A stretch of DNA of 64,000 bases from Nevskiales bacterium. Its GTDB lineage: Bacteria > Pseudomonadota > Gammaproteobacteria > Nevskiales > Nevskiaceae. Every line of letters starts with the position of its first letter. Positions within the stretch are counted from its first letter, which is position 1. The position numbers and the translations under genes are program-made. This document shows, piece after piece, positions 3,178-49,638 of the stretch. Location of the stretch: positions 62,001-126,000 of the forward strand of contig JAQVDP010000007.1 of the NCBI GenBank assembly GCA_028698335.1, in the 5' to 3' direction. The notes under the pieces were generated by a model. It was not told the origin of the DNA. It ran no database searches and was given only the letters and a program-made list of their open reading frames with translations.

Positions 3178-5623
3178 CCCGCTTCTCGACCCCTCGCCCC
3201 GGCGTGCGGCCTCGCTGTTGCCGCCGGCGCACGACCCCGACACCGCCGAAGCCTGGCGCCGCACCGCCTGGCAACGCCTGCATGAACGGCTCGAGCAGGC
3301 ACCACAGCCCGGCGATCCGGCACTGACCGAACGCCTGTACACCGACGCGCACGGCCAGCCGCGCCTGCCGACCACGCCGCCGCTGACGCGGGCGTCGATG
3401 CGACCGACGCCATGGAATCACAATCCGCTGCGCCGACTCACCGCATGGCTGCGCGGACGCCTCACCGGCCAGCGTGGACGCATGCAGTCACGCGCACCGG
3501 AGCAATCCGTCGCGGCGCACCGGCGCCCCTGGCGTGGCGCCGGACGGGCCCGGCGCCTGGCGCTGATCAGCCTGATCATCGCCCAGACCGTGGTCGCGAC
3601 CCACTACATGTCGGCGATCCTGCCGTATCGCGGCCAGCACCCGCTGGAGATCGCGATCCTGGGCCTGTACGCAGTCCTGTTCGCGTGGATCTCGGCCGGC
3701 TTCTGGACCGCGCTGATGGGCTTCGCCGTCCTGTTGCGCGGCCGTGACCGGTATTCGATCTCCGCGACCACCGCGGCCGAACAGCCGATCGCGGCGCACA
3801 CCCGGACCGCCCTGCTGGTGCCGATCTGCAACGAGGACGTCACCCGGGTCTTCGCGGGCATACGCGCGACCTGGGAGTCGGTCTGCCGCGCCGGGATGCA
3901 GGACCACTTCGACATCTTCGTGCTCAGCGACACCTACGACGCCGACATCCGGGTCGCCGAACTCCAGGCCTGGCTCGACCTGTGCCGCGAGGTCGACGGC
4001 TTCGAGCGCATCTTCTACCGGCGCCGTACCCATCGGATCAAGCGCAAGTCCGGCAACATCGCGGACTGGTGCCGTCGCTGGGGCAGCCGCTACCAGTACA
4101 TGGTGATCCTCGACGCCGACAGCGTCATGTCCGGCGGCAGCCTCAAGCGTCTGGTCCAGCTGATGGAGGCCAACCCCGGCGCCGGTATCATCCAGACCGC
4201 ACCGCGCGCGTTCGGACGCGAAACCCTGTACGCCCGCATCCAGCAGTTCGCCACCCGGGTCTACGGCCCGCTGTTCACCGCCGGCCTGCATTTCTGGCAG
4301 CTCGGCGAGTCCCACTACTGGGGCCACAACGCGATCATCCGCGTCGCCCCGTTCATGCGGCACTGCGCGCTCGGCCGCCTGCCCGGTCGCGGCGCACTGT
4401 CCGGCGAGATCATGAGCCACGACTTCGTCGAGGCGGCGCTGATGCGGCGCGCCGGCTGGGGCGTCTGGATCGCGTACGACCTGCCCGGCTCATTCGAGGA
4501 GATGCCGCCCACCCTGCTCGACGAACTGCAGCGCGACCAGCGCTGGTGCCAGGGCAACCTGCAGAACTTCCGGCTGTTCTTCGCGCAGGGCCTGCATCCG
4601 GCCCACCGCGCGGTGTTCATGACCGGCGTGATGGCGTACCTGTCGGCGCCGTTGTGGTTCCTGTTCCTGGTGCTGTCGACCGCGTTGCTGGCCGTGTTCT
4701 CGCTGTCCGAACCCCAGTACTTCACGGAGCCGTTCCAGCTGTTCCCGAACTGGCCGCAATGGCATCCGGAGTGGGCGATCCGTCTGTTCGGCGGCACGAT
4801 GCTGCTGCTGTTCCTGCCCAAGGTTCTGGCGGTGACCCAGCTGATCCTGCGTCGCGACCAGTGGCGCGGTTTCGGCGGGCCGGCCAAGCTGATCACCAGC
4901 GCGGTCACCGAAAGCCTGTTCGCGGCCGCGCTCGCGCCGATCCGCATGCTGTTCCACACCCGCTACGTGCTCGGCGCCCTGGCCGGATTCGCCGTGAAGT
5001 GGAAGTCGCCGCCGCGCGACGACAGCCAGACGCTATGGCGCGATGCGCTGCGCCGGCACGCCGGCGGCACCGTGCTCGGGCTCGTCTGGCTGGCGGCGGT
5101 GTACTGGCTCAACCCGGAGTTCCTGTGGTGGCTGCTGCCGGTGGCCGGCAGCCTCGTGATCGCCATCCCGCTCTCGGTGCTGAGCTCCCGCACCCGCCTC
5201 GGGCGCCGCGCCCGCAACGTCCGCCTGTTCCTGATTCCCGAGGAGTCGCTGCCGCCGCGCGAACTGCGCAGCCTGCGCGGCATCCTGGCCCGCAGCCGGC
5301 GGCTGCCGGACTTTCGCGCGGCGATCACCGATCCGTCGACCAACGCGCTGCTGACCTTGACCGAACGCCATCGGGCCGGCGTCACGCCGACCCAGCGCCG
5401 CGCACGCCTGCACGCGCTCGAGGCGGCACTGCACGAGCCTCCGGAAGCACTCGGCAACGACGCCCGCAACCGGGTCCTGTCGGACCCGCTGACGCTGACG
5501 CAGGTGCATCTGGCCGCGCACAGCAGTCCGAATCTGCACCCTGCCTGGAACCCGGGCGCGGGGGGCGAGCTTGTCATCGAAAGGACACGACAGCGTCACA
5601 TGCGCTTTACAGTCGCTTCATAG
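3164..5623 (+). CDS. opgH: Glucans biosynthesis glucosyltransferase H
   Basis: Inner-membrane glycosyltransferase that polymerises UDP-glucose into the beta-1,2 OPG backbone and moves it to the periplasm. Start ATG 3164 (MATVNPLL) was chosen because GGGGAG lies 5 bases upstream; the open frame runs further 5' inside opgG without such a site. The 819-residue product has an N-terminal cytoplasmic region, hydrophobic segments near residues 125-200 and 480-720, and a GT-A domain with D317-A-D319 and the QxxRW motif (QRDQRWCQGN, near residue 457). In E. coli, OpgH needs acyl carrier protein; olsB just downstream is also ACP-dependent. The 14-base overlap with opgG implies translational coupling. 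Confidence 0.94.
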   Translation: MATVNPLLDPSPRRAASLLPPAHDPDTAEAWRRTAWQRLHERLEQAPQPGDPALTERLYTDAHGQPRLPTTPPLTRASMRPTPWNHNPLRRLTAWLRGRLTGQRGRMQSRAPEQSVAAHRRPWRGAGRARRLALISLIIAQTVVATHYMSAILPYRGQHPLEIAILGLYAVLFAWISAGFWTALMGFAVLLRGRDRYSISATTAAEQPIAAHTRTALLVPICNEDVTRVFAGIRATWESVCRAGMQDHFDIFVLSDTYDADIRVAELQAWLDLCREVDGFERIFYRRRTHRIKRKSGNIADWCRRWGSRYQYMVILDADSVMSGGSLKRLVQLMEANPGAGIIQTAPRAFGRETLYARIQQFATRVYGPLFTAGLHFWQLGESHYWGHNAIIRVAPFMRHCALGRLPGRGALSGEIMSHDFVEAALMRRAGWGVWIAYDLPGSFEEMPPTLLDELQRDQRWCQGNLQNFRLFFAQGLHPAHRAVFMTGVMAYLSAPLWFLFLVLSTALLAVFSLSEPQYFTEPFQLFPNWPQWHPEWAIRLFGGTMLLLFLPKVLAVTQLILRRDQWRGFGGPAKLITSAVTESLFAAALAPIRMLFHTRYVLGALAGFAVKWKSPPRDDSQTLWRDALRRHAGGTVLGLVWLAAVYWLNPEFLWWLLPVAGSLVIAIPLSVLSSRTRLGRRARNVRLFLIPEESLPPRELRSLRGILARSRRLPDFRAAITDPSTNALLTLTERHRAGVTPTQRRARLHALEAALHEPPEALGNDARNRVLSDPLTLTQVHLAAHSSPNLHPAWNPGAGGELVIERTRQRHMRFTVAS

Positions 5624-9440: not shown

Positions 9441-10771
9441 AGTGCCCGCAGCAGGCGGGTGTGCACGCCGCCGAAGTCGCCGTTGGACATCGCCAGGATC
9501 CGATCCCCGCTCCGGGCCTCCGCGGTGACCGCGGCGACCAGCACATCGAGGTCCTGAAAGACCTTGACCCGCCCGCCCAGCGGCGCGAGAGCCGCCGCCG
9601 CATCCCAGCCCAGGTCCGGCCGCGCGTAGACATAGCTGATGTCGGCGCCGGACAGACTGGCCGCCAGCGCCGCCGCATGCGTCCCGAGCCGCATCGTGTT
9701 CGAGCGCGGCTCGAGCACCGCGAGGATGCGGCCTGCGTCACGACCGCGCAGCGCGTCGATCGTGACCGCGATCGCGGTCGGGTGATGGGCGAAGTCGTCG
9801 TACACGCTGACGCCGCCCGCCTCGCCGACCCGCTCCAGGCGGCGGCGCACGTTGCGGAACCCGGCCATCGCCTCGATCAGACGCTCGATCGGCACGCCGA
9901 CGTGATGCGCGGCCGCGAAGGCCGCGAGCGTATTCGAATGATTGTGGCCGCCGGCCAGCGGGCTGGCCACATGACCGCAGGCGCGCCCGCCGTACCGCAG
10001 CTCGAAGCCGCCCTCGGCAGGTCCGGCCTGCCAGCCGTCCTCGCGGTCGAAGTACTCGACCGGGGTCCAGCATCCCTGCTGCAGCACTCGCGCCAGATTG
10101 GCGTCGGCGCCGTTGACGATGAGACGCCCGCTGCCGGGCACCGTCCGCACCAGGTGATGAAACTGTCGCTCGATGCTCGCCAGATCCGGAAAGATGTCGG
10201 CGTGGTCGTACTCTAGATTGTTGAGAATCGCGGTGCGCGGCCGGTAGTGCACGAACTTCGAACGCTTGTCGAAGAACGCGGTGTCGTATTCGTCGGCCTC
10301 GATCACGAAGTACGGTGACTCGCCGAGCCGCGCCGACACGCCGAAGTTCTGCGGCACGCCGCCGACGAGGAACCCGGGCCGCAGGCCCGCATGATCCAGC
10401 AGCCACGCCAGGATCGAGGTCGTCGTCGTCTTGCCGTGGGTGCCAGCGATGGCCAGCACGTGACGCCCCCGCAGCACATGCTCGGCAAGCCACTGCGGTC
10501 CCGAGGTATAGGGCAGCCCGGCATCCAGCGCGTATTCCATCGCCGGATTGCCCCGCGTCACCACGTTGCCGACCACGATCATGTCCGGCGCGGGCTGCAG
10601 GTGCTCCACCGCGTACCCCGACATCACCTCGATGCCCAGTGCCTCGAGCTGGGTCGACATCGGCGGCCAGGCCGCGGCGTCCGATCCGGTCACGCGGTGG
10701 CCGGCTTCGCGCGCCAGCGCGGCGATGCCGGCCATGAAGGTGCCGCAGATCCCGAGGATATGGATGTGCAC
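9428..10771 (-). CDS. mpl: UDP-MurNAc:L-Ala-gamma-D-Glu-meso-DAP ligase
   Basis: Murein-recycling ligase attaching the tripeptide L-Ala-gamma-D-Glu-meso-DAP to UDP-MurNAc. The 447 residues match the family. N-terminal MHIHILGICGTFMAG is the characteristic nucleotide-binding start, AGTHGKTTTTSIL is the Mur ATP-binding loop, and EADEYDTAFFDKRSKF and HHPTAIAVT are shared Mur motifs. The GIEVMSGY and HHVGVP regions favour Mpl over MurC. Start is GTG 10771, giving the expected N-terminus. It lies 13 bases after an upstream membrane-protein gene, so the two are likely co-transcribed. It implies a DAP-type peptidoglycan. Confidence 0.95.
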   Translation of the reverse strand: MHIHILGICGTFMAGIAALAREAGHRVTGSDAAAWPPMSTQLEALGIEVMSGYAVEHLQPAPDMIVVGNVVTRGNPAMEYALDAGLPYTSGPQWLAEHVLRGRHVLAIAGTHGKTTTTSILAWLLDHAGLRPGFLVGGVPQNFGVSARLGESPYFVIEADEYDTAFFDKRSKFVHYRPRTAILNNLEYDHADIFPDLASIERQFHHLVRTVPGSGRLIVNGADANLARVLQQGCWTPVEYFDREDGWQAGPAEGGFELRYGGRACGHVASPLAGGHNHSNTLAAFAAAHHVGVPIERLIEAMAGFRNVRRRLERVGEAGGVSVYDDFAHHPTAIAVTIDALRGRDAGRILAVLEPRSNTMRLGTHAAALAASLSGADISYVYARPDLGWDAAAALAPLGGRVKVFQDLDVLVAAVTAEARSGDRILAMSNGDFGGVHTRLLRALQQK

Positions 10772-35450: not shown

Positions 35451-37505
35451 ATGCAAAATCCGCTGCTGGCCGATCCCATCGGCAACCCGCTGCCCGCCTT
35501 CGACCAGATCCGTCCGGAACACGCCGAAGCGGCCATCGACGACGTTCTGTCGCGCAACCGCAGCGAACTCGAGGCGCTGCTGAGCCGCGCCGAGACGCCG
35601 ACCTGGGAATCGCTGGTCGAACCCCTCGAGGAGCTCGGCGACCGCATCCAGCGAATCTGGGGCCCGGTGTCGCACCTGTTCAGCGTCGCCAACTCGCCGG
35701 AGTGGCGCAAGGCCTACAACGCCTGCCTGCCGAAGCTCACCGCGTACAGCATCGAGCTGTCGCAGTCCGAGCCGCTGTTCCGCGCCTACGAGGCGCTGGC
35801 GGCCAGCCCGGAGTTCGAACGGTTCTCGACACCGCGCAAGAAGGTCATCACCGATGCCCTGCGGGACTTCCGTCTCTCCGGTATCGGTCTGCCGGACGAG
35901 CAGAAGGCGCGCTACAAGGAGCTGTCGCTGAAGCTCTCCGAACTGCAGACCAAGTTCGAAGAGAACCTGATGGACGCGATCCAGGCCTGGAGCCGTCTGG
36001 TCACCGACGAAGCCGAACTTGCCGGCATGCACGATGCCGCCAGACAGGCCGCGCGTGAAAAAGCGCAGGCCAAGGATCAGGACGGCTGGCTGCTGACCCT
36101 GGACTTCCCCAGCTTCGACGCGGTCATCACCTACGTCGACAATCGCGAACTGCGCCGCGAGATCTATACCGCCTACGTCACCCGGGCGTCGGACCAGGGT
36201 CCGCAGGCAGGCCAGTTCGACAATTCCGAACTGATCGAACAGATCCTGGCGCTGCGCCACGAACTGGCGCGCATGCTCGACTTCGCCAACTACGCCGAGC
36301 TGTCGCTGGCCACCAAGATGGCCGAGAGCCCGCAGGAGGTCGAGGACTTCCTCGCCGATCTGGCGCGGCGTGCGCGCCCGCGCGCGATTGCCGAGATCGA
36401 CGAGCTGCGGCGCTATGCCAGCGAACGCGATGGTCTCGACGAGCTGATGCCCTGGGACCTGGCCTACTACTCGGAGAAGCTGAGCACCGACAAGCTGGGC
36501 CTGAGCGAAGAGGCCCTGCGCCCGTACTTCCCGATGCCGGGCGTCCTGCGCGGCATGTTCGCGCTGGTCGAGCGCCTCTACGGCATCCGCATCGAGGCCG
36601 CGCCCGGCATCGCCACCTGGCACGAGGACGTCACCACCTGGGCTCTGAAGGACGACCAGGGCGCCGAGTTCGGGTTGTTCTATCTGGACCCGTATGCGCG
36701 GCCGGAGAAACGCAGCGGCGCGTGGATGGACGAGTGCGTCAACCGCCGCCGCAAGTCGCAGATCCTGCAGCAGCCCGCCGCCTATCTGGTCTGCAATTTC
36801 GCGCCGCCGGTGGGCGGCCGCCCGGCCCTGCTGACCCACGACGAGGTGCTGACGCTGTTCCACGAATTCGGGCACGGCCTGCATCACCTGATGACCCAGG
36901 TCGACGAAGGCTCGGTTTCCGGCATCCGTGGCGTCGCCTGGGATGCCGTCGAGCTGCCGAGCCAGTTCATGGAGAACTGGTGCTTCGACCCGCCGACCCT
37001 GCGCAGCTTCGCGCGCCACTGGGAAAGCGGCGAACCGCTCCCCGACGAGCAGATCGAGAAGCTGCGCGCTTCCCGCACCTTCCAGGCGGCGATGGCCACG
37101 GTCCGTCAGCTCGAATTCGGCCTGTTCGATCTGCGCCTGCACCGCGATTTCGATCCGGCCAAGGGTGCGCGGGTCCTCGAGACCATCGACCGGGTCCGCG
37201 ACGAAGTCGCGGCGCTGAAGCCGCCCGCATTCAACCGCATGCCCTGGAGCTTCTCCCACATCTTCGCCGGCGGTTACGCCGCGGGCTACTACAGCTACAA
37301 GTGGGCGGAAGTGCTGTCGGCGGACGCCTTCGCCGCATTCGAGGAGAGTGGCTTCTCGCCCGAAACGGGCACCCGCTTCCGCGACACCGTGTTGGCGCAG
37401 GGCGGCTCGAAGGAAGCCATGGAGCTGTTCATCGAGTTCCGCGGGCGCAAACCCAACGTCGACGCCCTGCTGCGCCACAGCGGACTGGTCGACGCAGCCG
37501 CGTGA
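35451..37505 (+). CDS. prlC: Oligopeptidase A (M3 metallopeptidase)
   Basis: Cytoplasmic zinc peptidase degrading short peptides, including cleaved signal peptides. The 684 residues match E. coli PrlC. HEFGHGLHH supplies zinc ligands His471 and His475 with Glu472 catalytic; EGSVSGIRGVAWDAVELPSQ with the third ligand region follows, and FSHIFAGGYAAGYYSYKWAEV is the C-terminal M3 signature. The AT-rich stretch upstream (35360-35400) stands out in this GC-rich window and may hold its promoter. A strong terminator follows. Confidence 0.96.
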   Translation: MQNPLLADPIGNPLPAFDQIRPEHAEAAIDDVLSRNRSELEALLSRAETPTWESLVEPLEELGDRIQRIWGPVSHLFSVANSPEWRKAYNACLPKLTAYSIELSQSEPLFRAYEALAASPEFERFSTPRKKVITDALRDFRLSGIGLPDEQKARYKELSLKLSELQTKFEENLMDAIQAWSRLVTDEAELAGMHDAARQAAREKAQAKDQDGWLLTLDFPSFDAVITYVDNRELRREIYTAYVTRASDQGPQAGQFDNSELIEQILALRHELARMLDFANYAELSLATKMAESPQEVEDFLADLARRARPRAIAEIDELRRYASERDGLDELMPWDLAYYSEKLSTDKLGLSEEALRPYFPMPGVLRGMFALVERLYGIRIEAAPGIATWHEDVTTWALKDDQGAEFGLFYLDPYARPEKRSGAWMDECVNRRRKSQILQQPAAYLVCNFAPPVGGRPALLTHDEVLTLFHEFGHGLHHLMTQVDEGSVSGIRGVAWDAVELPSQFMENWCFDPPTLRSFARHWESGEPLPDEQIEKLRASRTFQAAMATVRQLEFGLFDLRLHRDFDPAKGARVLETIDRVRDEVAALKPPAFNRMPWSFSHIFAGGYAAGYYSYKWAEVLSADAFAAFEESGFSPETGTRFRDTVLAQGGSKEAMELFIEFRGRKPNVDALLRHSGLVDAAA

Positions 37506-42584: not shown

Positions 42585-43364
42585 ATGAAAATCGCCACCT
42601 GGAACGTCAACTCGCTGCGTGTCCGCCTGCCTCATGTCCTGGACTGGCTGCAGGCCCAGCCGGTCGACGTTCTCGGGATCCAGGAGACCAAGCTCACCAA
42701 CGACGCGTTCCCGTTCGATGCCCTGCGGGAGGCCGGATATCAGGCGATTCACAACGGTCAGAAGACCTACAACGGGGTGGCTCTACTGGCCCGTCACGCC
42801 CTCGACGACGTGCAGACCGACATCCCCGGATTCGAGGACGAACAGAAGCGCGTGATTGCCGCAACGGTGGGCGGCGTCCGCGTCATCAACGTCTACGTCG
42901 TCAACGGCCAGGCGCTCGACAGCCCGAAATACACGTACAAGCTGCGCTGGCTGGACGCGCTGCGGGCCTACGTCGAGGCGGAACTGGCGCGATACCCGCT
43001 GCTGGCGGTAACCGGCGATTTCAACATCGCCCCGGAGGCCCGCGACACCCACGATCCGGCGTCCTGGGAAGGCAACATCCTCTGCTCGGAGCCCGAGCGG
43101 CAGGGCCTGCGCGCGCTGCTCGCGCTCGGGCTCAGGGACAGCTTCCGCATGTTCGAACAACCCGAAAACGCGTTCACCTGGTGGGATTACCGGCAGGCTG
43201 CATTTCGCCGCAACATGGGGCTGCGCATCGACCACATTCTGCTGTCGGGCCCACTTGCGGAGAAATGCCGGAGCTGTGCCGTCGATGTGGCGCCACGACG
43301 CCTGGAGCGCCCTTCCGACCACGCGCCGGTGATCGTCGACCTGGACCTCGGCACGCGCGACTGA
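42585..43364 (+). CDS. xthA: Exodeoxyribonuclease III
   Basis: AP endonuclease and 3'-5' exonuclease of base-excision repair. The 259 residues carry MKIATWNVNSLRVRLPHVL, LGIQETKLTNDAF (metal Glu), VTGDFNIAPEARDTHDP (Asp-Asn pair), FTWWDYRQAAFRRNMGLRID and the closing CAVDVAPRRLERPSDHAPV (catalytic His). Start ATG 42585 lacks a purine-rich site upstream. Followed 87 bases later by an HD-type gene. Confidence 0.96.
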   Translation: MKIATWNVNSLRVRLPHVLDWLQAQPVDVLGIQETKLTNDAFPFDALREAGYQAIHNGQKTYNGVALLARHALDDVQTDIPGFEDEQKRVIAATVGGVRVINVYVVNGQALDSPKYTYKLRWLDALRAYVEAELARYPLLAVTGDFNIAPEARDTHDPASWEGNILCSEPERQGLRALLALGLRDSFRMFEQPENAFTWWDYRQAAFRRNMGLRIDHILLSGPLAEKCRSCAVDVAPRRLERPSDHAPVIVDLDLGTRD

Positions 43365-43393
43365 CGTCCCCCGAACTGTGGCGCAGTTCACTG

Positions 43394-43421
43394 TTCAGGC
43401 CTCGCGTGACGGCGCTATCAT
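43394..43421 (+). promoter_or_regulatory. Candidate promoter for the 43452 gene
   Basis: TTCAGG (43394-43399) and TATCAT (43416-43421) separated by 16 bases, with a predicted leader of about 24 bases and GGAG before the GTG. A small GAACTG/CAGTTC hairpin at 43373-43389 just upstream may end xthA transcription. Confidence 0.4.
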
Positions 43422-43451
43422 CGAGACTCGCCTGTTCTCGCGGAGACCGAG

Positions 43452-44450
43452 GTGGCCGGCCTGATCGCCCGAAGGCGCAACCACTACGACGTAACCAATT
43501 CGGTGAACCTTGCCAGCCCGGACGCCGTCCTGGAGGCGATCGGCGACATCCTCGGCCGGCTGTATCCGGACCTGTCGCTGCACCCGATCCGCAAGGCGTT
43601 CGACACCTTCACCCGCCTCTATGCCGGCACGCTGCCGGGCTACGCGGGTTGCGACACCTGGTATCACGACGCCCAGCACAGCCTGGACTGCGCGCTGACC
43701 TTCACGCGCCTGTTCGACGGCTACGAACGCGGTGTCGGGGCTACCGAACAGCTCGGCGAACGCAGGGCCATGCTCGGCATCATCGTCTCGCTGTTCCACG
43801 ACGCCGGGTATATCCGCCGCACCACCGACGACGCCGACAACGGCGCCATCTACACGCTCACCCACGTCAAGCGCAGCGGCGCATTCCTGGCCGAGTTCCT
43901 GCCCACGGTGGGCCTGGCGGCCGATGCCGCCCTCGCACGCCGCATCGTGCACTTCACCGGCTACGAGGTCGCTCTGGACCAGATCCGCGTATCGCGCCGC
44001 AAGGACCGCCTGCTCGGATTCATGATGGGCACGGCCGACATCCTCGCGCAGACGGCGGATCGCTGCTATCTGGAGAAGTGCCGCGATTTCCTCTATCGCG
44101 AATTCGCGCTGTGCGGGTTGGCCGGCGACGGCCCCGACGCCATCTACAGCTCCCCGGAAGACCTGCTCGACAAGACCGTCGCCTACAACGAGCGCCTGTG
44201 GGACGAGCGCCTGGACGGCTATTTCGAAGGCATTCATCGCTATCTCGATGTGCACTTCGACCGCCCCAATCCCTACACCGCGACGATCCGCGCCCATCTC
44301 GAACGCGTCGGACGGATGAGTCGCAGCGGCCGTTACGACGGTCTCACGGCGCGCCCGGTGGCGATCAACGCCGACCGCCTGCGACGGTCGCTCAAGCCGC
44401 GCCCGCGTCGGCATGGCCCGGGATCCGCAACCGCCCGTCACATCGGTTGA
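43452..44450 (+). CDS. HD/cyclic-nucleotide-phosphodiesterase-like protein
   Basis: 332 residues. TWYHDAQHSLDCALTFTRLF followed by GIIVSLFHDAGYIRRTTDDAD (H116-D117) resembles the metal-binding core of class I cyclic-nucleotide phosphodiesterases and HD-domain hydrolases; a later Asp sits in MGTADILAQTADRCYLEKC. The substrate is unknown and the family is seldom described. Start GTG 43452 has GGAG 6 bases upstream. The basic C-terminus (after residue 305) may be disordered. Convergent with tonB. Confidence 0.75.
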   Translation: MAGLIARRRNHYDVTNSVNLASPDAVLEAIGDILGRLYPDLSLHPIRKAFDTFTRLYAGTLPGYAGCDTWYHDAQHSLDCALTFTRLFDGYERGVGATEQLGERRAMLGIIVSLFHDAGYIRRTTDDADNGAIYTLTHVKRSGAFLAEFLPTVGLAADAALARRIVHFTGYEVALDQIRVSRRKDRLLGFMMGTADILAQTADRCYLEKCRDFLYREFALCGLAGDGPDAIYSSPEDLLDKTVAYNERLWDERLDGYFEGIHRYLDVHFDRPNPYTATIRAHLERVGRMSRSGRYDGLTARPVAINADRLRRSLKPRPRRHGPGSATARHIG

Positions 44451-44480
44451 ATCGCGCGGCGCCCCGACGCCGTCGCGCCG

Positions 44481-45023
44481 CTATTCGAACACCACCGGCA
44501 CGCTCAGACTCAGGGGCACCCCCTGCGGTGGCCGCGGCACCGGACTGGCCCGGTGGGCCAATGCCAGCGCCTCGGCATCGAGAGCGGCATCGCCGGCGCT
44601 GTGCTGCAGGCGGATTCCGCTCAGCTGCCCGTTCGCGCCGACATCGAACGCGACGACCGCCGTTCCATGCAGCGCCGCGTCCGCGCCCGCCGGGTGGGCG
44701 GGCGGGCGCCGAAAGCGCTGCAGGTGGGCGCGCAGGCGCGCGTAGTAGCCGTCATGTCCGCCGCCGCCCTGCTGACGGACTGCCTGCCCACGCGGCGCCG
44801 GAGTCGTGGCCGGCGCCGCGCCATCAGGCCCCGCGGCGACTGATCTGAACGCGATTTCGATCACCGTATCCCGGTCGTCGCCGGCACCCCGGGCCGTCCC
44901 CGAACTGGCCTGATGCGCAGTCGTATCCCTGACGCCGCCCCCGAGCAGCAGCAGCCCGTGCAGCAACAGCGCGATCACCGCCGCCCCCAGCCAGCGTCGC
45001 ATCGCCTTGCCGTCTTCACTCAT
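44481..45023 (-). CDS. tonB: TonB-like energy transducer
   Basis: 180 residues: N-terminal membrane anchor (about 10-28), short Ala/Pro/Gly linker, and a TonB C-terminal domain (YYARLRAHLQRFRRPP, HGTAVVAFDVGANGQLSGIRL, SPVPRPPQGVPLSLSVPVVFE). The linker lacks the long Pro-Glu/Pro-Lys run of E. coli TonB, so periplasmic reach looks short. Start overlaps the ExbD2 stop by 4 bases. Last gene of the run from rsmD. Confidence 0.87.
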   Translation of the reverse strand: MSEDGKAMRRWLGAAVIALLLHGLLLLGGGVRDTTAHQASSGTARGAGDDRDTVIEIAFRSVAAGPDGAAPATTPAPRGQAVRQQGGGGHDGYYARLRAHLQRFRRPPAHPAGADAALHGTAVVAFDVGANGQLSGIRLQHSAGDAALDAEALALAHRASPVPRPPQGVPLSLSVPVVFE

Positions 45024-45418
45024 GGACCGCGCACCGCCGCCAGCTGAACCTGCCGGACGCCTTGCGCCTCAAGCCGCTGCAGCACGTCCACGACCCGGCT
45101 CGCGGAAACCTGCGCATCCGCGCGCAGACGAATCCGCTGCCGGCGCAGCGGCTGCGCGTCGAGCCATGCGCCCAGCGCGGCATCGTCGAGGGGCAGGCCG
45201 GCGTCGCGCAGACGGCCGTCGCGCCCCAGCGCCAGCGCTGCGCCATCCTCATGGGCGACCCGGGCATGGCGGCTTTCAGGCCCACCCTCCGGAGCGGGCG
45301 CAGACGCCTCGCCGAACTGGGCCAGCATCAGGAAGAACACCAGCAGCAACAGCACCACGTTGAGAACCGGCAGCATGTCGCCATCGCGGCGGACCGGCGC
45401 TGAAGCACCGATCCTCAT
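45020..45418 (-). CDS. ExbD-like protein 2, membrane Asp replaced by Asn
   Basis: 132 residues: one transmembrane segment (about 17-34), then a periplasmic domain. In ExbD/TolR the membrane segment carries an essential Asp; the neighbour has it as LVDVVFIL (Asp20). Here the aligned position is LNVVLLLL (Asn20), confirmed by codon AAC at 45359-45361 on the minus strand. It may form mixed complexes with the upstream ExbD. Overlaps both neighbours by 4 bases. Confidence 0.8.
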   Translation of the reverse strand: MRIGASAPVRRDGDMLPVLNVVLLLLVFFLMLAQFGEASAPAPEGGPESRHARVAHEDGAALALGRDGRLRDAGLPLDDAALGAWLDAQPLRRQRIRLRADAQVSASRVVDVLQRLEAQGVRQVQLAAVRGP

Positions 45419-45801
45419 CCCCCACCCACCAGGTCGAAGGACACGCCGGCATCGCGCAGAACGTCCATCGCAGCGACCAGATCCTGCAGACTGGCGCCCG
45501 CGCCCGTCTTGAGCCGCAGGCGCGCACCCGGCGTGCCCGCATTCAGCGCCGTCACCAGCTGCGACGTGGACACGATGCGATCACGGTAATGGATCCGGTC
45601 GGCGCCGAGGAGTTCGGCATCGACCGCGGGATCGGTCGCGGCCGGACTTGCTGCGGCAGGCGACGTCACCGCGAGTTCCAGCACCCGCGGCGCCGGCGGC
45701 CGCGCCGCGAGCATGAAAAAGAACAGCAGGATGAATACGACGTCGACCAGGGACGTCAGCGCGATCCGGGAGCGACGGACGGGGGCGCGTTCAAGCCGCA
45801 C
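45415..45801 (-). CDS. exbD: ExbD biopolymer transport protein 1
   Basis: 128 residues with a basic N-terminus, transmembrane segment (about 14-32) containing the proton-path Asp20 in SLVDVVFILLFFFML, and a periplasmic domain ending in DVLRDAGVSFDLVGGG. Start is GTG 45801, overlapping exbB by 11 bases. Works with ExbB and TonB to use the proton gradient for outer-membrane uptake. Confidence 0.9.
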   Translation of the reverse strand: MRLERAPVRRSRIALTSLVDVVFILLFFFMLAARPPAPRVLELAVTSPAAASPAATDPAVDAELLGADRIHYRDRIVSTSQLVTALNAGTPGARLRLKTGAGASLQDLVAAMDVLRDAGVSFDLVGGG

Positions 45802-46423
45802 GCCGTGCGGCCCCGGCCGGCTGCGTGAACAGCGCGGTCAGCGCGCTCTCCATCGCCACGCGCTGGGCGTCGATGACGCGCTCGAAGGCCTGCAGCACGG
45901 TGATGACCGGCATCGCCACCGCCAGGCCCGCCGCCGTCGTCAGCAGGGCCTTCCAGATTCCGCCGGCGAGTCCGGATGCCTCCACGGTGCCGCCGGCGGC
46001 CTGCATCGCCTGGAACGCGTCGATCATGCCCAGCACGGTGCCGAACAGGCCGAGCAGCGGCGCCAGCTGCGCGATCACGTCGAGCGCCCGCATGAAACTG
46101 CGCATGCGCTCCAGCCAGTGTTGTGCCGCGGCCTCTGCGCGCTCGCGCGCATGCATGTCGGCGATCGCGGGATCGGCTCGGGCGGCGACGGCCACCGTCA
46201 GCACCGCGGCGAGCGGCCCGCGCTCACCCGCCAACAGTCCCAGCGCCTGATCCGGCTGGTGGCGCCCGCAGGCCTGGAGCACCGGCGCGACGAACGCCTG
46301 CCGGCTGATCCGCCATTCCCAGAACTCCCAGATCTTGACGATGCTCAGGGTGGCCGCGACCAGCGACAGCCCGAGCAGCAGCAGCATCGGCCAACCGCCG
46401 AGCCCGAGCCATTCCAGCAGCAC
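45791..46423 (-). CDS. exbB: ExbB/TolQ/MotA-family proton channel protein
   Basis: 210 residues with three hydrophobic segments (about 10-30, 113-135, 155-180). LAPLLGLFGTVLGMIDAFQAM and GGIWKALLTTAAGLAVAMPV are the conserved channel helices. Start is GTG 46423, giving MLLEWLGLGGWP, 12 bases after the ggt stop. Forms the ExbB-ExbD motor with the next two genes. Confidence 0.92.
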   Translation of the reverse strand: MLLEWLGLGGWPMLLLLGLSLVAATLSIVKIWEFWEWRISRQAFVAPVLQACGRHQPDQALGLLAGERGPLAAVLTVAVAARADPAIADMHARERAEAAAQHWLERMRSFMRALDVIAQLAPLLGLFGTVLGMIDAFQAMQAAGGTVEASGLAGGIWKALLTTAAGLAVAMPVITVLQAFERVIDAQRVAMESALTALFTQPAGAARRAA

Positions 46424-46435
46424 GGGGCCGGCGCC

Positions 46436-48163
46436 TCAGCGGGCGCTGCCGGACACGTCGCCGGGACGAACGCTCGCGGCGCCGACGCCGCGCGGGTCGC
46501 TGGCCGCCTCGACGACTCCCGCGGGCACGTCCCAGGCGACTGCCTGCATGTTGCCCCAGTGCCGGCTGTAGACGTCGACCGTATGCCCGAATGGGGCCAG
46601 CGCGTCGTGCATCGGCGTCGCGGCGTCCCCCGGCTCGACCTGCACCACGTCGGGCAGGTACTGATGATGCAGCCGCGGACGCGCCACCACCGCTTCGAGC
46701 GGGCGCCCGCCGGTCCAGGACAGCACGGCCTGGATCACCATGCTGACGATCCGGCTGCCGCCGGGCGTCCCGACGATCAACAAGCCCCTCGGCCCTTCGA
46801 CAAAGGTCGGCGTCATCGACGACAGCGGCCGCTTGCGCGGCATGATCGCGTTGGGCTCCGAGCCGACCAGGCCGTAGGCATTGGGCTCGCCCGGCGCGCT
46901 GGCGAAATCGTCCATCTCGTCGTTGAACAGCACCCCGGTCGCCGGCGCCATGAATCCCGAGCCGAACGGCAGATTGATCGACAGCGTCGCGGCGACACGG
47001 TTGCCGTCCGCATCGAGCACCGAAAGGTGGGTGGTGTTGGTGCCTTCGGGCGACGGTTGTGCCGGCGGCAGCGTCGAACTCGGCGTCGCATGAACCGGAT
47101 CGATGGTCCGCGCGAGTTCGAGCGCGTAACTGCGGGCGCTCAGGTGCCGCATCGGGATTTCGACGAAATCGGGATCGCCCAGCCACGCGGCACGGTCCCG
47201 GTACGCCCGGCGCAAGGCCTCGACCAGCAGATGCTGCGCCCGGGGCGAATCATCATCGTGCCAGTCGAGGCTCTCGAGCTGTTGCAGCACCTGCGCCAGC
47301 GCCAGGCCACCGGCCGACGGCGGCGGCGCACTGACGATGCGATAGTCGCGGAAATAGGTGACGACCGGCTCGCGCTCGACCACGCGATAGCGGCGCAGGT
47401 CTTCCTCGGTCCACAGCCCGCCCGCGGCGCGCGACGCCTTGAGCAGGCGTTCCGCGATCTGGCCGCCGTAGAAGTCCGCGGCCCCGTGTTCGGCCATGCG
47501 CCGCAGCGTCCACGCCAGATCCTGCTGGCGCAGCACATCCCCGGTCACCAGCGGCTTGCCGTCCGGGACGAACACCCGCTTGGCGGCCCAGGACATGCGC
47601 TCGGCGAAGTAGCCGATCATCGCCGCCAGTTTCGGGTCGACCTCGAAACCCGCGTCGGCGTAGCGAATCGCCGGCGCCAGCAACTCGCCGAACGGCTTGC
47701 GCCCGTACTTCCCCGCAATGTGGGCCAGCGCCGCCGGCTCCCCGGGGATCCCCGCGGCCTTCGGCCCGAACCGCGAACGCTGCGGATCGACTGCGCCGTC
47801 GGCATCGCGATACATGTCGCGCGACGCGGCCATCGGCGCGACCTCGCGGCCGTCGACGAAGATGTCCTGCCCATCGGCGGCGCGATGCAGCAGCCAGAAG
47901 CCGCCACCGCCGAGCCCGGATCCGGTCGGCTCGACCACGGCCAGCGCCGCGCTGGCGGCAACCGCGGCGTCGAATGCGTTGCCGCCGTCGGCGAGCACCT
48001 CCATGCATGCCGCGGTCGCGAGTGAATGCGCGGTTGCGCAGGCGGCACCCGGCGGCGTCCCGGCAACCGCGCCGGACGCCGTGAAGGCAGCGAACAGCGC
48101 AAAGATCGCGAGGGACCATCGCCCGATCAGGGCTTGCAGGCGAATTCCGGGGCGATGACTCAT
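46436..48163 (-). CDS. ggt: Gamma-glutamyltransferase
   Basis: 575 residues: signal peptide (about 10-40), VVEPTGSGLGGGGFWLL, GLALAQVLQQLES, and the autocleavage site N-T-T-H-L-S, with Thr377 as predicted nucleophile of the small subunit; GSGFMAPATGVLFNDEMDDF and GTPGGSRIVSMVIQ complete the small subunit. Periplasmic cleavage or transfer of the glutamyl group of glutathione. Start ATG 48163 overlaps the ferredoxin stop by 4 bases. Confidence 0.94.
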   Translation of the reverse strand: MSHRPGIRLQALIGRWSLAIFALFAAFTASGAVAGTPPGAACATAHSLATAACMEVLADGGNAFDAAVAASAALAVVEPTGSGLGGGGFWLLHRAADGQDIFVDGREVAPMAASRDMYRDADGAVDPQRSRFGPKAAGIPGEPAALAHIAGKYGRKPFGELLAPAIRYADAGFEVDPKLAAMIGYFAERMSWAAKRVFVPDGKPLVTGDVLRQQDLAWTLRRMAEHGAADFYGGQIAERLLKASRAAGGLWTEEDLRRYRVVEREPVVTYFRDYRIVSAPPPSAGGLALAQVLQQLESLDWHDDDSPRAQHLLVEALRRAYRDRAAWLGDPDFVEIPMRHLSARSYALELARTIDPVHATPSSTLPPAQPSPEGTNTTHLSVLDADGNRVAATLSINLPFGSGFMAPATGVLFNDEMDDFASAPGEPNAYGLVGSEPNAIMPRKRPLSSMTPTFVEGPRGLLIVGTPGGSRIVSMVIQAVLSWTGGRPLEAVVARPRLHHQYLPDVVQVEPGDAATPMHDALAPFGHTVDVYSRHWGNMQAVAWDVPAGVVEAASDPRGVGAASVRPGDVSGSAR

Positions 48164-48414
48164 GACAGCAACCGGGTCAGTTTGTGGTACTTGTCGAGGA
48201 GTTGTTCCTGCGACTCGACGTGATCGGGATCCAGCGGAATGCAGTCCACCGGACACACCTTGCGGCACTGCGGTTCGTCGAAGTGTCCGACGCATTCGGT
48301 GCACAGCTCGGGATCGATCTCGTAGATCTCGACCCCCTGTTCAATCGCGTGATTCGGGCAGACCGGCTCGCAGACATCGCAGTTGATGCAGTCATGGGTG
48401 ATCTTCAGCGACAT
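48160..48414 (-). CDS. yfhL: YfhL-type 2[4Fe-4S] ferredoxin
   Basis: 84 residues. Cluster 1 ligands in CINCDVCEPVCP (Cys9, 12, 15, 19 pattern), cluster 2 in CTECVGHFDEPQCRKVCPVDC with the C-x2-C-x8-C-x3-C spacing of the YfhL/Alvin type. Low-potential electron carrier, partner unknown. Between coaD (12 bases) and ggt (overlap). Confidence 0.94.
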   Translation of the reverse strand: MSLKITHDCINCDVCEPVCPNHAIEQGVEIYEIDPELCTECVGHFDEPQCRKVCPVDCIPLDPDHVESQEQLLDKYHKLTRLLS

Positions 48415-48426
48415 CCCGCGCCCCGA

Positions 48427-48909
48427 CTACTGCTGCCCGATGCGCGCCTTCAGCGCTCCGGCCACCGCCTGCGGCACGAGCTTCTCGACCGGCGCGCCGA
48501 GTCCGGCCAGTTCCCGCACCAGAGACGACGACAGGTGGGCATATTCCGGCGACGGCGCCAGCATCACGGTGTCGAGCTGCGGATAAAGGTCCCGGTTCAT
48601 CACCGCCATCTGCTTTTCGTAGTCGAAGTCGCCGACGGTACGAACCCCCCTCACCAGCACGGCAACCCCGTTTTCGCGGGCGAAGTCGACGACCAGTCCG
48701 GAGAATCCCTTGACCTCGACGTTCGGCAACTCCCGCACCACCTCGCGGATCAGGTCGACGCGCTCCTCGAGACTGAAACGCGGGTTCTTCGAGGGATTCA
48801 GGCCGACCGCGACGATCAGCTTCGGAAACATCCGCGAAGCACGCTGGATGATGTCGAAGTGGCCGAAGGTGATCGGATCGAAGGTGCCGCTGTACGCAGC
48901 CGTAGTCAT
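48427..48909 (-). CDS. coaD: Phosphopantetheine adenylyltransferase
   Basis: Fourth step of CoA synthesis. 160 residues with the TxGH nucleotidyl-transferase motif TAAYSGTFDPITFGHFDIIQRA and VAVLVRGVRTVGDFDYEKQM. ATG 48909 (MTTAAYSG) is preferred over ATG 48921. 33 bases after rsmD, as in many gammaproteobacteria. Confidence 0.96.
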   Translation of the reverse strand: MTTAAYSGTFDPITFGHFDIIQRASRMFPKLIVAVGLNPSKNPRFSLEERVDLIREVVRELPNVEVKGFSGLVVDFARENGVAVLVRGVRTVGDFDYEKQMAVMNRDLYPQLDTVMLAPSPEYAHLSSSLVRELAGLGAPVEKLVPQAVAGALKARIGQQ

Positions 48910-48942
48910 GGACGTCCCCAATACTGACGATGGATGGCGGAT

Positions 48943-49518
48943 CTAGGCCGCCGCTGCCGGCGACTGATACCGGGCCAGGGCGAAGGATACCTGACCGGCC
49001 TGTTTTTCCTTGACCCACTCGAAGCCCGCGGGCAGCGCCGGCGCGACCTTTCCGGGCCATTCCAGGAACACGCGGTTGGATGTCGGATTGAGCACCTTCG
49101 ACAGCTCGGCCAGTACCGGCTCCAGCAGGCCGGAATCGAACGGCGGATCGACGAACACGATGTTGTAGCGGTGCCAGGTCTGCTGCAGAAAGTACACCGC
49201 GTCCATGTTCACGACGTCGGTGTCGCCGGCCTTCAGCGCCGCCAACGCGGCCTTGATCCGCGTGCACTGGCGATGCCCCTGATCGACGAAGGTGCAATGC
49301 GCGGCCCCGCGCGACAAGGCCTCGATCCCCATGGCCCCGCTGCCGGCGAACAGGTCCAGACAGCGTGCGCCCTGGATCACCGGCGCCAGCCAGTCGAACA
49401 CCGTCTGCCGGACCCGGTCCGGCGTCGCGCGGACGCCGTCCGCGGCATCGAAGTCGATGACCCGCGAACGCCACTGCCCGCCGATGACCCGCAATTTGCC
49501 CTGGATTCGAGAACTCAT
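48943..49518 (-). CDS. rsmD: 16S rRNA (guanine966-N2)-methyltransferase
   Basis: 191 residues. N-terminal MSSRIQGKLRVIGGQWRSR, SAM loop CLDLFAGSGAMGIEALSRGA and catalytic motif IVFVDPPFDSGLL. Start ATG 49518 gives the family N-terminus; an open extension to 49623 is ignored. First gene of the run to tonB. The 120-base gap to tldD contains no recognised feature. Confidence 0.94.
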   Translation of the reverse strand: MSSRIQGKLRVIGGQWRSRVIDFDAADGVRATPDRVRQTVFDWLAPVIQGARCLDLFAGSGAMGIEALSRGAAHCTFVDQGHRQCTRIKAALAALKAGDTDVVNMDAVYFLQQTWHRYNIVFVDPPFDSGLLEPVLAELSKVLNPTSNRVFLEWPGKVAPALPAGFEWVKEKQAGQVSFALARYQSPAAAA

Positions 49519-49638
49519 CGCTGCTTGCTCCACACGGCTCGACGACCACGCGATCGCGTCCGCTGTTGCGCCCCTGCACAGACCGCCCGGGCCATCCTCA
49601 AGCCCACCGCGAACCGACGTCAACCGCCCCGGCGGCGT

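Follow-up and report, generated by a model that had tools for sequence, protein, structure and literature searches.

The window, a 64,000-nucleotide stretch from the genome of a Nevskiales bacterium, carries on its minus strand four genes in the order exbB-exbD1-exbD2-tonB, whose ORF coordinates give successive overlaps of 11, 4 and 4 bases (Table 1). The middle overlap bears out an earlier note on this DNA, which had described two ExbD-type genes sharing 4 bases, and is likely to couple the translation of the two ExbDs. A scan for consensus promoters and terminators found none.

Table 1. Features of the exbB-exbD1-exbD2-tonB operon (window coordinates)
Feature	Position	Strand	Description
exbB	45791..46423	-	210 aa, GTG start; MotA/TolQ/ExbB proton-channel ring subunit
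exbD1	45415..45801	-	128 aa, GTG start; D-type ExbD with transmembrane Asp20
Asp20 codon of exbD1	45742..45744	-	proton-site position; from the sequence and the ExbD1 alignment
exbD1 stop / exbD2 start overlap	45415..45418	-	4 bases
exbD2	45020..45418	-	132 aa, ATG start; N-type ExbD, Asn20 replacing the Asp
Asn20 codon of exbD2	45359..45361	-	GTT on the plus strand, so AAC on the minus strand
tonB	44481..45023	-	TonB-like; overlaps exbD2 by 4 bases

Genes of the operon and its surroundings

The exbB product hits PF01618 (MotA_ExbB) at 94.7 bits and also matches solved ExbB and TolQ chains; equivalents of the pore threonines are present in GLFGTVLGM and GIWKALLTTAAG. Both ExbDs belong to PF02472 (curated cut-off 25.4 bits), ExbD2 scoring 51.7 bits and ExbD1 44.1. 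The AlphaFold2 model of ExbD2 (pLDDT 82) consists of a single helix, residues 16-35, and an alpha/beta periplasmic domain, i.e. the one transmembrane (TM) helix and periplasmic fold of ExbD/TolR proteins, and the solved folds nearest to it are those of ExbD (8pek, 8p9r, 8vgc). The TonB product has an N-terminal TM segment (ALLLHGLLLL, with a His inside) and, as in Ton systems, a TonB C-terminal domain, with PF03544 (TonB_C) and PF13103 (TonB_2) over their cut-offs and TIGR01352 at 54.6 bits.

The surrounding segment (42585-49623) reads rsmD, coaD, ferredoxin, ggt, exbB, exbD1, exbD2, tonB, an HD-domain gene and xth, a gene order common to a Stagnimonas metagenome-assembled genome (L091) and pointing to an origin of the window in Nevskiales. 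A functional tie to the upstream gamma-glutamyltransferase gene (ggt) was considered and rejected, as this synteny is shared with Stagnimonas alone among 80 named loci (see below). In this window the operon has no TonB-dependent receptor, FecCD or FecI/FecR gene beside it. Beside some related operons are found TonB-dependent receptors, a FecCD permease, a periplasmic binding protein, a PKHD-type hydroxylase and FecI/FecR; these neighbors suggest TonB-dependent uptake, mostly of iron carriers, and indirectly that the operon may serve such outer-membrane uptake here as well.

Aspartate and asparagine in the tandem ExbDs

Residue 20 is Asp in ExbD1 (LTSLVDVVFILLFFFMLA) and Asn in ExbD2 (MLPVLNVVLLLLVFFLMLA), as the earlier note had read them. 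When a profile of ExbD2 relatives is aligned with E. coli ExbD (6tyi), Asn20 falls on Asp25 in NVTPFIDVMLVLL; thus the essential transmembrane Asp of ExbD/TolR proteins is present in ExbD1 and missing from ExbD2. Asp was found in 22/22 relatives in the ExbD1 alignment (A2), and Asn in 24/24 in that of ExbD2 (A1), where N20, L24, L25, F28 and F29 of the TM helix are invariant. Because all 24 relatives keep it, the Asn is due neither to chance nor to a sequencing error or frameshift. Among 61 related genomes every close ExbD2 relative has Asn and the adjoining ExbD has Asp; conservation across Alpha- and Gammaproteobacteria also excludes an oddity of one genome.

Since a search with ExbD2 might favor Asn, the ExbD1 alignment was taken as bait, which is blind to the residue in ExbD2. 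It recovered 23 D/N and two D/S unique pairs from 274 gammaproteobacterial genomes, and 14 D/N and one D/D from a 398-genome sample of the phylum. The Asn of ExbD2 thereby survived comparison with homologs: 37 of the 40 unique tandem pairs, from Gamma- and Alphaproteobacteria together, are Asp/Asn, two Asp/Ser and one Asp/Asp, a count that describes orthologs of this ExbD1, the only ones such a bait recovers, and not tandem ExbD pairs generally. A scan of genome contigs seeded with the ExbD2 motif brought at least 403 relatives, including the 80 named loci, which span both classes (Rhodospirillales, Rhodobacterales, Chromatiales, Oceanospirillales, Salinisphaerales and others). Its seed contained Asn, so the scan serves for gene order only, and the 70 pairs from the named loci were excluded from the residue count. 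Almost all complete loci among the 80 have ExbB, ExbD(D), ExbD(N) and TonB in one direction. Among the matches listed in a PF02472 search across the phylum, most were solitary ExbD/TolR.

Contig ends aside, no N-type ExbD was found without a D-type partner in its locus; the one family in which the partner is not adjoining (f3) has an interrupted pair. In its locus L270 (L270:4320-10679, genome G038) the two genes lie 5.5 kb apart and both are kept (exbD1 4320-4778, exbD2 10248-10679), and between them lies a block resembling the SOS mutagenesis set imuA-imuB-dnaE2. The solitary ExbDs among the strongest of the typed bait matches were all from other families, and none was an ExbD1 of this one.

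We note two kinds of exceptional pair. (i) In two genomes (L165 and L167) ExbD2 reads TPLVSVIFLL, with Ser for Asn; neutrality, rather than Asn as such, may then be the key feature of this residue. (ii) The single D/D case is an ExbB-ExbD-ExbD-TonB operon (L271:1998-3671, genome G123; also L250), whose second ExbD keeps Asp yet clusters with ExbD2 in the tree; it is possibly the ancestral state or a reversion. In this tree of 217 sequences, a branch of support 68 sets off ExbD1, and ExbD2, including the Ser and Asp variants, groups apart from it. The D/D pair together with the D/S pairs means that Asn itself is not strictly required.

Might ExbD2 be a duplicate in decay, its key residue already gone? 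Asn is a single base change from Asp, and in the genus of the window the system occurs patchily, only 3/11 genomes giving strong matches. Conservation refutes this reading, to which we give next to no credence: Asn and the TM motif are kept across two classes, and mean pairwise identity over the periplasmic domain is 27% for ExbD2 and 26% for ExbD1, which indicates equal constraint. Over the TM segment identity is somewhat lower for ExbD2, at 73%, than for ExbD1, at 85%.

The two proteins also differ in the cytoplasmic tail, taken as the 12 residues before the key position and compared over 132 D/N pairs. ExbD1 tails are Arg-rich, and those of ExbD2 have Asp or Glu at -8 or -7. An acid occurs within the 12 residues in 2% of ExbD1, 98% of ExbD2 and 81% of solitary ExbDs, and mean net tail charge is +2.58 for ExbD1 and -0.65 for ExbD2. 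Thus the upstream acid and the TM Asp, which solitary ExbDs usually carry on one chain, are here split over two. Over the 132 pairs, the median distance from the last ExbD1 codon to the Asn codon is 66 nt, so that exbD1 and exbD2 normally abut or overlap. On the side of the ring, the ExbBs of D/N loci have, as Ton systems do, equivalents of Thr148 and Thr181 (117/117). ExbB Glu176 was examined as a marker of D/N motors and rejected; the ExbB of the window has Lys there, and the position varies in solitary systems too.

A second Asn/Asp motor and known relatives

The same genome encodes a separate, Glt/Agl-like motor on another contig (C12:22910-24569; L241:5411-7070, minus strand). It has an ExbB/MotA-like gene and two ExbDs, the first with Asn (LNITAFLNLMVVLVPFLLI) and the second with Asp (LTSLMDIFTILVFFLLV), together with a protein bearing an AgmX/PglI-type C-terminus (NF033768) and adjoining TPR proteins; it resembles the Glt/Agl core complex of Gammaproteobacteria (PMC3169522). 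The Asn/Asp pair is kept in 30/30 gammaproteobacterial loci homologous to this motor, and an acid at -8 is found in 100% of their N-type and 3% of their D-type ExbDs, a charge split like that of the Ton pair. A free tree needs two changes to Asn, but the AU test rejects neither a single origin of it in the two systems (p 0.60) nor control groupings, and so lacks the power to tell one origin from two. Elsewhere on contig C12, directly after an ExbD of the solitary type (35927-36292), is a 101-aa protein (L003:1882-2184) with an ExbD-like periplasmic half and a TM segment that has neither Asp nor Asn (LLVYSVVLLAALGYLQW).

Four known systems invite comparison. The classical TonB-ExbB-ExbD complex of E. 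coli (5 ExbB : 2 ExbD : 1 TonB; PDB 6TYI, 9DDO-9DDQ) shares with our operon the protein families, the ExbB pore threonines, an ExbD with a single TM and a periplasmic domain, and the His in the TonB TM; it differs in that here there are two ExbD genes, one without Asp, and the tail charges are divided between their proteins. The tandem operons of Xanthomonas and Sphingobium likewise have one ExbB, two tandem ExbD genes and TonB in one cluster. In the Sphingobium tonB-exbB-exbD1-exbD2 operon, however, Asp is present in both ExbDs and tonB comes first (PMC8599685), whereas our operon has Asp in one ExbD and tonB last. The parallel to the Xanthomonas pair drawn in the earlier note is therefore probably wrong.

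The gliding motor AglR-AglQ-AglS of Myxococcus also combines one ExbB/MotA-like protein with two ExbD-like proteins, and for AglQ and AglS the choice between homo- and heterodimer has been posed as an open question (PMC9389320). In M. xanthus both AglQ and AglS are described with Asp, whereas the gammaproteobacterial relatives are Asn/Asp. Agl/Glt loci further differ from our operon in having TPR proteins and a GltG/AgmX-type tail protein as neighbors and, in the gammaproteobacterial relatives, the Asn gene first; among the ORFs beside 44481-46423 there are neither TPR proteins nor a GltG/AgmX tail protein, which sets this locus apart from the Glt/Agl group. Finally, TPH-vWA proteins encoded beside TolQ-like genes mostly form heterologous axle pairs near a TolQ-like ring, but these are not ExbD proteins and have Asp in each monomer (PMC12204202).

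Tandem ExbDs are thus already known, and where their residues have been published (Sphingobium, PMC8599685) both keep Asp. In the literature searched, which covered only a minority of subscription papers, we found no report of a conserved-Asn ExbD. No NCBIfam model for N-type ExbDs came out above its cut-off.

A proposed heterodimeric axle with one proton site

Solved Ton and Tol structures show a ring of ExbB or TolQ around two helices of ExbD or TolR, and at any moment in the solved 5:2 motors one Asp is at a ring threonine while the other points towards the cytoplasmic cavity (PMC12905483). We consider it fairly probable, from sequence comparison, that the operon encodes a dedicated Ton motor whose axle is an obligate ExbD1:ExbD2 heterodimer in an ExbB5 ring, only the Asp of ExbD1 working. 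We infer the heterodimer from the fixed pairing, the abutting genes, the complementary tails and the repetition of the design in the second motor; the invariant ExbB pore threonines are likewise indirect support for a mixed dimer.

The axle in the ExbB pentamer would then be ExbD1 (Asp) plus ExbD2 (Asn) instead of a homodimer, and protons would be carried and released by ExbD1 alone, against the ExbB threonines. ExbD2 would fill the second axle place with a permanently neutral, protonated-like residue, in keeping with MotB, where Asn mimics protonated Asp (PMC9389320), and would bring in a second periplasmic domain. The tails, basic in ExbD1 and acidic in ExbD2, may serve the two proteins for mutual recognition or for fixing their separate roles; the tail charges could instead match ExbB. 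Rotary models have 36 degrees per proton (PMC12215075). With an axle of the proposed kind each ExbB subunit would meet one working Asp per turn, and one proton would pass per 72 degrees, hence perhaps ~5 rather than 10 H+ per revolution, a difference deduced from the rotary model, in which the 5:2 proton count is itself a model. The force would be passed to the co-encoded TonB and on to outer-membrane uptake, likely of iron carriers.

E. coli ExbD(D25N) is inactive (PMC11658791), which speaks against the mixed axle unless, as we assume, the Asp of a partner makes an Asn subunit workable. The same observation would suit a regulatory or brake subunit: ExbD1 homodimers would do the work, and ExbD2 would swap in to slow or silence the ring on sensing the state of TonB or the receptor through its periplasmic domain. 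Division of labor in tandem ExbDs is indeed known, since the second ExbD of Xanthomonas is dispensable for iron uptake and needed for pectate-lyase induction (PMC3551730), and the slightly higher TM conservation of ExbD1 points the same way. However, the abutment, fixed order and 1:1 occurrence of the genes suit a stoichiometric subunit more than an inhibitor that acts now and then, the family shows no ExbD1 on its own among the strongest typed bait matches, and the opposite tail charges suggest a choice of partner, so that we think a brake, the main alternative, unlikely.

Alternatively, one ExbB might serve two homodimeric complexes, making an active motor with ExbD1 and a passive scaffold with ExbD2, e.g. 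a peptidoglycan or TonB anchor. ExbD-type periplasmic domains do bind TonB and can homodimerize (PMC9389320), and 8p9r and 8pek are among the folds nearest to ExbD2, but a passive anchor needs neither so conserved a pore-lining helix as that with N20, L24, L25, F28 and F29 nor a fixed 1:1 tandem arrangement, and we hold this to be quite improbable.

To return to the mixed axle, many Proteobacteria carry an Asp/Asn ExbD pair, and this suggests a motor having one working proton site instead of two. More tentatively, these motors may form a distinct proteobacterial class of 5:2 proton motors, with a heterodimer axle and one ionizable residue, in both Ton and Glt/Agl settings, which would halve the protons per turn and have an asymmetry absent from the homodimeric ExbD, TolR and MotB motors; this is a possibility that we would not yet call probable. 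Among the many genes annotated "biopolymer transporter ExbD" is a separate type of subunit, which lacks an NCBIfam model of its own. How ExbBD, TolQR and MotAB convert proton flow to motion, and whether both axle Asp residues are needed, is unsettled; a natural Asp/Asn motor would make the role of the two residues testable without a dead mutant, through proton counts, axle register and conversion of a single subunit.
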